Shown piece by piece: positions 41,148-42,409 of a DNA stretch of 64,000 bases (position 1 is its first letter; each line of letters opens with the position of its first letter). Origin of the DNA: Flavobacteriales bacterium (GTDB taxonomy: Bacteria > Bacteroidota > Bacteroidia > Flavobacteriales > Schleiferiaceae). Under the pieces are notes generated by a model that was not told where the DNA came from, did no database searches, and was given only the letters and a program-made list of their open reading frames with translations. The DNA is taken from positions 1-64,000 of the forward strand of contig JAAXJR010000012.1 in assembly GCA_012269745.1 (NCBI GenBank), in the 5' to 3' direction. Position numbers and translations under genes: made by a program.

Positions 41148-41180
41148 TTTGCGTTTTAGAAAACAGAAATAGTACATTTA
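41148..41180 (+). promoter_or_regulatory. Promoter of the structured leader upstream of the hotdog-like gene
   Basis: TTTG (41148-41151), 21-nt spacer, then TACATTTA (41173-41180), one mismatch from TAnnTTTG. A 28-codon open frame starts 4 nt after the box at 41185. Confidence 0.5.
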
Positions 41181-41184
41181 CATC

Positions 41185-41271
41185 ATGCAACAACGATTTA
41201 ATCATATGACAGCTCTAATTAACCGCATTTATGTGTGGAAGGGTTGTATGTATGATATTGTGAAGGCATAG
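41185..41271 (+). CDS. Possible 28-residue leader peptide
   Basis: A short frame inside the leader RNA starting right after the -7 box, so it would be translated without a 5' leader. It holds no run of one amino acid that would suggest a classic amino-acid attenuator (two Gln, single Trp and Cys). A ribosome ending at its stop would cover the GTGAAGGC arm of the antiterminator. It may be chance; no homolog is known to me. Confidence 0.3.
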   Translation: MQQRFNHMTALINRIYVWKGCMYDIVKA

Positions 41272-41300
41272 ATTTAAGAAATTACAACCCAGGATATAGG

Positions 41301-41333
41301 AAGCGCCTTCACTACAGTGAGGGCGCTTTTTTT
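41301..41333 (+). terminator. Terminator of the leader RNA
   Basis: A 12-bp stem with one G-U pair (41301-41312 with 41317-41328), TACA loop and seven T (41327-41333), 20 nt before the next gene's ATG. Confidence 0.9.
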
Positions 41334-41353
41334 ATACCCGCAAATTGAATGAA

Positions 41354-41728
41354 ATGAAGAATTTCTTCACGACCGTAAGAAAAGCAGGTCCATTAAAGAC
41401 TAGAAAACAACTGAGCATCCAAAACGACATGGTGGATACTCAAGGTATGTTGACTGTTTGGAATCTTATGGACACCATGAATGCGATCAAGAGGGAGCGT
41501 CTCGACGCGCTATTAATTGACGATCGCTATCATGATACCGTGAAGAACATTGACCTCAAATTATACAGCAATGCAGCTTTAGGAGAGGATCTTCTTGTTG
41601 AAAGCAACTTCGCCCCTAGCGGCAAGCGTCAAGTGGACCTCAAGGTATATGTCAGCAAAAGAGCGAAAGGTGAACCTGCTAGAAGAGTTTGTAAAGCCGT
41701 CTACACCCTGGCCATTGAGCCAAAATAA
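41354..41728 (+). CDS. Small protein, possibly hotdog-fold thioesterase-like
   Basis: A 124-residue cytosolic protein. The alternation of one long helix (TVWNLMDTMNAIKRERLDAL) and beta strands (VKNIDLKLYSNAALGEDLLVES in outline, VDLKVYVSKRA, RRVCKAVYTLAIEPK) resembles a hotdog-fold acyl-CoA thioesterase, but no catalytic motif is certain. Start ATG 41354 is preferred over a TTG at 41345. It lies directly after a terminator at 41301-41333 with no promoter box between, which suggests control by read-through, and is followed by another structured segment and terminator. Confidence 0.68.
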   Translation: MKNFFTTVRKAGPLKTRKQLSIQNDMVDTQGMLTVWNLMDTMNAIKRERLDALLIDDRYHDTVKNIDLKLYSNAALGEDLLVESNFAPSGKRQVDLKVYVSKRAKGEPARRVCKAVYTLAIEPK

Positions 41729-41815: not shown

Positions 41816-41845
41816 AAAAAGCCCGGCGCTGCGCGCCGGGCTTTT
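41816..41845. terminator. Bidirectional terminator between the hotdog-like gene and the DUF4287 gene
   Basis: A perfect 9-bp GC stem (41821-41829 with 41833-41841), TGC loop, A-run 41816-41820 and T-run 41842-41845. Confidence 0.92.
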
Positions 41846-41848
41846 GTG

Positions 41849-42409
41849 TTATAAAGTTCGTTGGATTGCCCTTTCAAGCCACATAATCGCCTCAGAAATT
41901 TCCGCATCTTCCTCATTGAGATAAATGGCATGTGAACACATACTACCGGGCTTCATCAACTGCAAATTCCCTTCTGGCTCTTGCCCTTTCACATTGATCC
42001 AGACTTCGAATCGACCTTTGGTCGCGGGAACTAGGCATCCCACCTGCTTTGAGGTACGAATACTGTAATACTTCTTCTTCCCGCTGAGTTCGAACTCATG
42101 TCCGGTTTCCTTTAAAGCAGCAACTAGTCGCTCATGCAAAGGCTTCCAATGCTCCTTACCCTTGAAAACACTATCCTCAACTTGGTCTTCATCCATGTGT
42201 AAAGAAGTATTCTCTTTGGTGAGGTGAACCACCATATTCGCGTGTCCGTGACCAATACCGAATTCCTCTTTCAAGCGCTTGACATTGGCCATATGCTTTG
42301 GCTCGTTCCAAGAACGGACCATATCCACCCAGTACGAAATGGGCTGGCCTGTTTTCTTTTCAAGTCCTGCAATGTGGCTCTGAATTCCGGCGTTTAGGTC
42401 TTTGCTCAT
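41849..42409 (-). CDS. DUF4287 and DUF5655 domain-containing protein
   Basis: A 186-residue cytosolic protein with two parts. The N-terminal DUF4287-like helical part reads LEKKTGQPISYWVDMVRSW (in outline) and FGIGHGHANMVVHL. The C-terminal DUF5655-like part reads GKEHWKPLHERLVAAL, FELSGKKKYYSIRTSKQVGCLVPATKGRFEVWINVKG (in outline) and ends with EISEAIMWLERAIQRTL. Both families are widespread and of unknown function; the fold of DUF5655 is nuclease- or YdhG-like in description only. It is 2 nt downstream of valS on the same strand. Confidence 0.83.
   Translation of the reverse strand: MSKDLNAGIQSHIAGLEKKTGQPISYWVDMVRSWNEPKHMANVKRLKEEFGIGHGHANMVVHLTKENTSLHMDEDQVEDSVFKGKEHWKPLHERLVAALKETGHEFELSGKKKYYSIRTSKQVGCLVPATKGRFEVWINVKGQEPEGNLQLMKPGSMCSHAIYLNEEDAEISEAIMWLERAIQRTL

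Follow-up and report, generated by a model that had tools for sequence, protein, structure and literature searches.

Leader-peptide attenuators are the textbook cases of regulators that sense one amino acid on behalf of its own pathway. In the his, trp, thr and ilv attenuators of enterobacteria, the position of the ribosome sets the choice between the 2:3 antiterminator and the 3:4 terminator, and the theory of Elf and Ehrenberg states that control codons work best when they are globally rare in the proteome, as sensitivity then rises (PMC1183508). In Flavobacterium psychrophilum, leader-peptide attenuation has been suspected before amino-acid biosynthesis operons, with 5′ elements at pheA, hisG and others (PMC9723704). 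The uORF of TopAI-YjhQ in E. coli senses ribosome-targeting antibiotics and reports translation stress from several causes (PMC12121999).

The leader analysed here lies on a 64,000-nucleotide stretch (the window) of a Flavobacteriales bacterium of the marine family Schleiferiaceae, upstream of a gene for a small hotdog-fold protein. It would share the 2:3 versus 3:4 choice of the enterobacterial systems, but its upstream ORF (uORF) is leaderless, five scarce amino acids are mixed in it, and its target is the hotdog gene. It has in common with the F. psychrophilum leaders the phylum, the promoter type and the suspected mechanism, whereas those leaders precede amino-acid biosynthesis operons and the present gene family, in the genomes of the order that were sampled, was found only in Schleiferiaceae. 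Like the TopAI-YjhQ uORF it might answer to several causes; the latter is not known to be built of scarce-amino-acid codons. Because its codons are not cognate to the product of the operon, the leader is not classed as an amino-acid-biosynthesis attenuator. It is probably a ribosome-mediated transcription attenuator that senses mixed scarce amino acids and controls the hotdog-protein gene; the mechanism class taken by itself, namely ribosome-mediated (leader-peptide) transcription attenuation, is judged from the sequences to be very probable.

All parts of the leader are on the forward (+) strand, and the promoter pair, the 28-codon frame, helix 1, the mimic, the terminator and the gene start each lie where an earlier sequence-only reading had placed them. 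First of all, a flavobacterial-type promoter (41148–41180) is seen in the sequence, with TTTG at 41148–41151, a spacer of 21 nt and the −7 box TACATTTA at 41173–41180. Since the TAnnTTTG box of F. psychrophilum spans −12 to −5 (PMC9723704), +1 is predicted at 41185, which is the ATG of the uORF. The uORF (41185–41271; 28 codons encoding MQQRFNHMTALINRIYVWKGCMYDIVKA, Trp codon at 41236–41238, stop codon at 41269–41271) would thus be leaderless, as only 5.5% of the mRNAs in F. psychrophilum are (PMC9723704). Within it lies a small hairpin, CCGCAU-UUAU-GUGUGG (41223–41238), whose pairs were given by RNAalifold within the genus and whose changes are one-sided only. Helix 1 (41241–41290) is formed by GGGTTGTA at 41241–41248 and TACAACCC at 41283–41290, that is, 8 bp closing a 34-nt loop. 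In this loop is the putative antiterminator segment GTGAAGGC (41260–41267; region 2), which overlaps the last codons of the uORF and is called the mimic as a near-copy of the terminator 3′ arm. The intrinsic terminator (41303–41333) consists of the arms GCGCCTTCAC (41303–41312) and GTGAGGGCGC (41317–41326) and a T-run (41327–41333), and its 5′ arm contains the segment GCCTTCAC (41305–41312), of which the mimic is the exact complement, as had been claimed. The ATG of the gene (41354–41728, 124 aa) follows at 41354, 20 nt past the T-run. Beyond the gene, a strong hairpin was noticed near 41816–41845, between it and a convergent neighbour with DUF4287 and DUF5655 domains (41849–42409, − strand).

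The terminator has a ΔG of about −21 to −23 kcal/mol, and it is mainly responsible for the folding of this segment of the window exceeding dinucleotide shuffles (z −6.2). The 8-bp long-range match, on the window sequence only, is mildly unusual against dinucleotide shuffles (p 0.035); as it is weak in the window alone, its significance has to be drawn from relatives. No Rfam covariance model reached a gathering-level match in the window, and below threshold only terminator-driven matches to sRNAs were obtained. No convincing second case of the leader architecture was found elsewhere in the window, nor in the roughly 0.65 Mb that was sampled from two genomes with a scan whose sensitivity was 34/41.

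When 60 related genomes were searched at the DNA level, the leader was recovered by sequence in about 20 genomes of the same genus and in none of the others. In the genus it always stands directly upstream of the same gene, with 9–20 nt between T-run and gene, a gap that agrees with the earlier description of the gene as promoterless. The constant placement bears on the idea that the region is an independent small RNA and that the gene is transcribed from a separate promoter or through constitutive leak. Such an RNA would agree with the terminated transcript of about 150 nt predicted from the positions of promoter and terminator, but the constant placement ahead of one gene, and a mimic/terminator pairing that would then be without a role, make it very improbable.

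The mimic GTGAAGGCA is invariant in 20/20 aligned same-genus leaders except for one base at its 3′ flank, the terminator 5′ arm is nearly invariant, and three terminator pairs carry double-sided compensatory changes. A TAnnTTTR-type box lies 4–6 nt ahead of the uORF ATG, and the 28-codon uORF is unbroken in 16 of the 18 leaders that are complete; the uORFs of L012 and L014 differ by +1 and −1 nt, with the stop still at most three codons from its usual place. In one same-genus clade the terminator arm is altered and the mimic has stayed as it was, which counts against the attenuator reading. Moreover, the peptide itself is only mildly constrained within the genus (pN/pS 0.66), and a conserved peptide sequence as the signal was rejected for this weak purifying selection.

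The core of helix 1 (GGGTT/AACCC) is retained in most same-genus leaders. Helix 1 beats shuffles in the genus of the window and not in most other lineages, so that the pseudoknot through this hairpin, proposed from the window alone, does not hold as a general feature and is at most a local refinement. As for a 1:2 pause hairpin, helix 1 was the one candidate looked for; it is present mainly in its own genus and no general one was seen. A riboswitch that binds a ligand and forms its pseudoknot through hairpin 1 could account for the conservation of this hairpin and of GTGAAGGC in the genus; it is nevertheless highly improbable, as Rfam gives no match, most of the other lineages were found to lack hairpin 1, and only the uORF with the mimic/terminator layout is common to the lineages. 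The sequence-only reading had left it to either ligand binding or translation to decide read-through: the translation part has gained support, and the ligand part is not supported, with no Rfam match and no conserved aptamer.

The gene family is present in 12 genera of Schleiferiaceae (37 of 394 sampled genomes of the order, none outside the family). Its distant homologues encode proteins that are 20–32% identical, and their upstream regions do not align with the window. Even so, in every other gene-bearing Schleiferiaceae genus examined the members show the same layout in unrelated sequence, that is to say, only the layout is common across genera. The order is promoter box, leaderless or near-leaderless uORF, mimic of the terminator 3′ arm near the end of the uORF, a spacer of 27–59 nt, terminator and gene, and it is kept in all but one or two of 41 tabulated upstream regions, with 4–11 nt from the −7-type box to the uORF start in most lineages outside the genus. 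The conservation of this layout is established directly.

The mimic changes in sequence from genus to genus, and each time it matches the terminator 5′ arm of its own leader. The mimic/arm pairs are GGGAAGCACCTC/GAGGTGTTTCCC in L073, GGGGTGCC/GGCGCCCC in L075 and GGAGAAGCA/TGCTTCTCC in L076; in L074 (GGGAGATGCCTC/GAGGTGTTTCCC) 12/12 pairs are retained through G-U changes. Weaker or imperfect mimics occur in L015, L017, L019, L124, L126, L134 and L135, of which L017 and L019 belong to the genus of the window. Taken together, the complementarity of mimic and arm is established with a combined p of 1.7e-9 over 10 genera (one representative each) and of 1.8e-17 over 16 lineages. This covariation between genera, read from sequence comparison, is the strongest evidence for the proposed antiterminator, and a lack of conservation or covariation of the helices, which had been named in advance as counting against it, was looked for in the relatives and not found. 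The uORF is likewise observed to stay open up to the mimic in 14 lineages, where the product of chances is about 1e-12 with uORF starts that were partly picked by hand using the −7 box.

The arrangement thus holds the parts of an attenuator: a short leader ORF, translatable as judged by sequence, near the 5′ end; an intrinsic terminator between this ORF and the gene; a segment at the uORF end that can pair with the terminator 5′ arm; and regulatory codons placed where a stall would expose that segment. From these parts we infer the co-transcriptional order, the direction of the response and the signal. With transcription starting on the uORF start codon or no more than a few bases from it, a ribosome would load at once and trail the RNA polymerase. 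When the uORF is read fast, the ribosome at its end would cover the mimic (region 2), so that the terminator (3:4) could form and transcription would stop. When charged tRNA is short, the ribosome would stall upstream, and the exposed mimic would pair with the terminator 5′ arm (2:3), giving read-through into the gene. Judging from the size of the ribosome, 41260–41267 should be exposed with the Trp codon (41236–41238) in the A site, and covered with the ribosome at the stop codon (41269–41271). The control codons are a mix of Trp, Met, Asn, His and Cys, and such a switch would therefore respond when any one of several amino acids runs short.

The composition of the leader peptide was compared with two kinds of control. 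In the codons upstream of the last eight in 14 lineages, W is enriched 5.5-fold, M 4.2-fold, N 2.8-fold and H 1.9-fold over base shuffles, while C (1.5-fold) is not significant; Asp is absent from the same region, and Glu, Leu, Ser and Gly are low. With 249 intergenic ORFs from these genomes as the reference, the enrichment is 3.0–3.8-fold for W, M, N and H and 1.7-fold for C; the W/M/N/H signature is not seen in these control ORFs, where C alone is also common. The enrichment falls as the frequency of the amino acid in the proteome rises (Spearman −0.77, against the intergenic control). A queuosine-codon explanation (Asn/His/Tyr/Asp) was tried and rejected, as Asp is nearly absent and Tyr is not above shuffles.

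Of the codons that lie five or more positions ahead of the mimic, 44% specify C, W, M, N or H; the share drops to 21% in the last four ahead of it and to 14% inside the mimic and beyond (p 1.7e-8 for the positional fall). The fall within and after the mimic may partly be due to the G-rich mimic itself; the drop in the four codons ahead of it (p 0.001) is free of that excuse. Composition and position are direct observations, and the placement fits the footprint of a ribosome whose stall would expose the mimic.

Enrichment of C, M, H and W could also point to a nascent peptide that senses metal or redox state, because these four residues either bind Cu(I) or oxidize easily. Asn, the most abundant of the enriched residues, is no Cu(I) ligand of this kind, neither motif nor spacing is fixed, and Cys is common in the control ORFs too; this explanation is considered extremely improbable.

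In two members of the family with hisG (L179 and L180), leaders of the same architecture lie upstream of that gene, with His runs in the uORF. The uORFs encode MITNQQLHHHFHSGHQARRK (L179, 5 nt behind the TAnnTTTG-type box TACATTTG) and MYSIQLHHHHFHTRSQARW (L180, box farther away), each ends with the mimic CAGGCGAGG, and the terminator follows 32–34 nt further on. Since the architecture is shared, canonical leader-peptide attenuation of such geometry, with operon-cognate codons, seems to be in use in the clade. The difference is that the control codons there are a His run cognate to a His-biosynthesis operon, whereas the present leader is mixed and its gene makes no amino acid. Together with the conservation, the inter-genus covariation and the upkeep of the uORF, this hisG control gives good support to the proposal that translation of the 28-codon frame sets the choice between antiterminator and terminator.

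The same leaders bear on what the ribosome would be reporting. Any stall ahead of the mimic would yield read-through, and uORFs with several signals are known, such as that of TopAI in E. coli (PMC12121999); the signal of the same attenuator might accordingly be ribosome stalling in general, as brought about by antibiotics or translation stress, or else an arrest peptide. This is unlikely: no conserved arrest sequence is seen, the peptide being variable with its composition retained in two unrelated uORFs, and in the hisG leaders of this family the same arrangement comes with His codons that are cognate to the operon. Given the attenuation mechanism, a shortage of several scarce charged tRNAs is the somewhat favoured signal.

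The supply of amino acids was considered next to this. The genomes look broadly amino-acid auxotrophic from their gene content, with Trp, His, Arg, Phe and branched-chain markers mostly missing: hisG was counted in 2/8 Schleiferiaceae genomes, PDT (pheA) in 0/8, ilvC in 0/10 and AsnA in 1/10, and trpA and argG above the cut-off in 1/10 each. Among G000 and nine relatives, most are without these markers, although several of the genomes are 99–100% complete. Auxotrophy as the sole explanation of the recipe was rejected: Leu, Val, Ile and Phe codons are not enriched in the uORF, though branched-chain and Phe synthesis looks missing, and the composition is unchanged in G027, a genome equipped with hisG, trpA, argG and asparagine synthetases (asnA). 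As auxotrophy does not explain the recipe, the signal is the least certain step of the attenuation reading.

A second uORF of about 36–38 codons lies between terminator and gene in six genomes of two genera (L073, L074, L077, L079, L123 and L124). Its stop overlaps the gene start (ATGA), most of these uORFs end in PPLL or similar before the stop, and the N/H/M/W/C-rich composition of the leader uORF is repeated in it (Spearman 0.95). This suggests translational coupling as a second layer of control.

The 124-aa product gave no Pfam match. Its AlphaFold model (pLDDT 86.6, pTM 0.79) best matches in the PDB the 4-hydroxybenzoyl-CoA thioesterase 1lo9 (E 4e-8) and YbgC-type acyl-CoA thioesterases, so that a 4HBT/YbgC-like hotdog fold is predicted with good confidence. 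A DxxG stretch, which we take to resemble the active-site stretch of YbgC with its catalytic Asp, is present in the protein of the window (D28..G31) and in L072–L074, L076 and L079; it is missing in L075, L077, L078 and L080, whose products are possibly non-catalytic hotdog proteins.

In its fullest form, the leader would be a multi-amino-acid scarcity sensor, with a peptide selected for composition and not for sequence, any of about five shortages switching on a lipid/CoA-type enzyme, and the second uORF adding a translational layer in some lineages; the chances of this fuller account are judged to be evenly divided. The mechanism is familiar; what seems to be new is the mixture of amino acids in the peptide and the gene under its control. 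No leader built of mixed scarce amino acids was found in the open-access literature searched. The finding opens an unannotated family of hotdog proteins to experiment, and it makes testable the quantitative prediction of attenuation theory that rare codons give the most sensitive control. In summary, that composition and not sequence is kept across the genera, and repeated in the second uORF, points to a leader by which these bacteria would sense overall amino-acid scarcity on behalf of an enzyme of another pathway.
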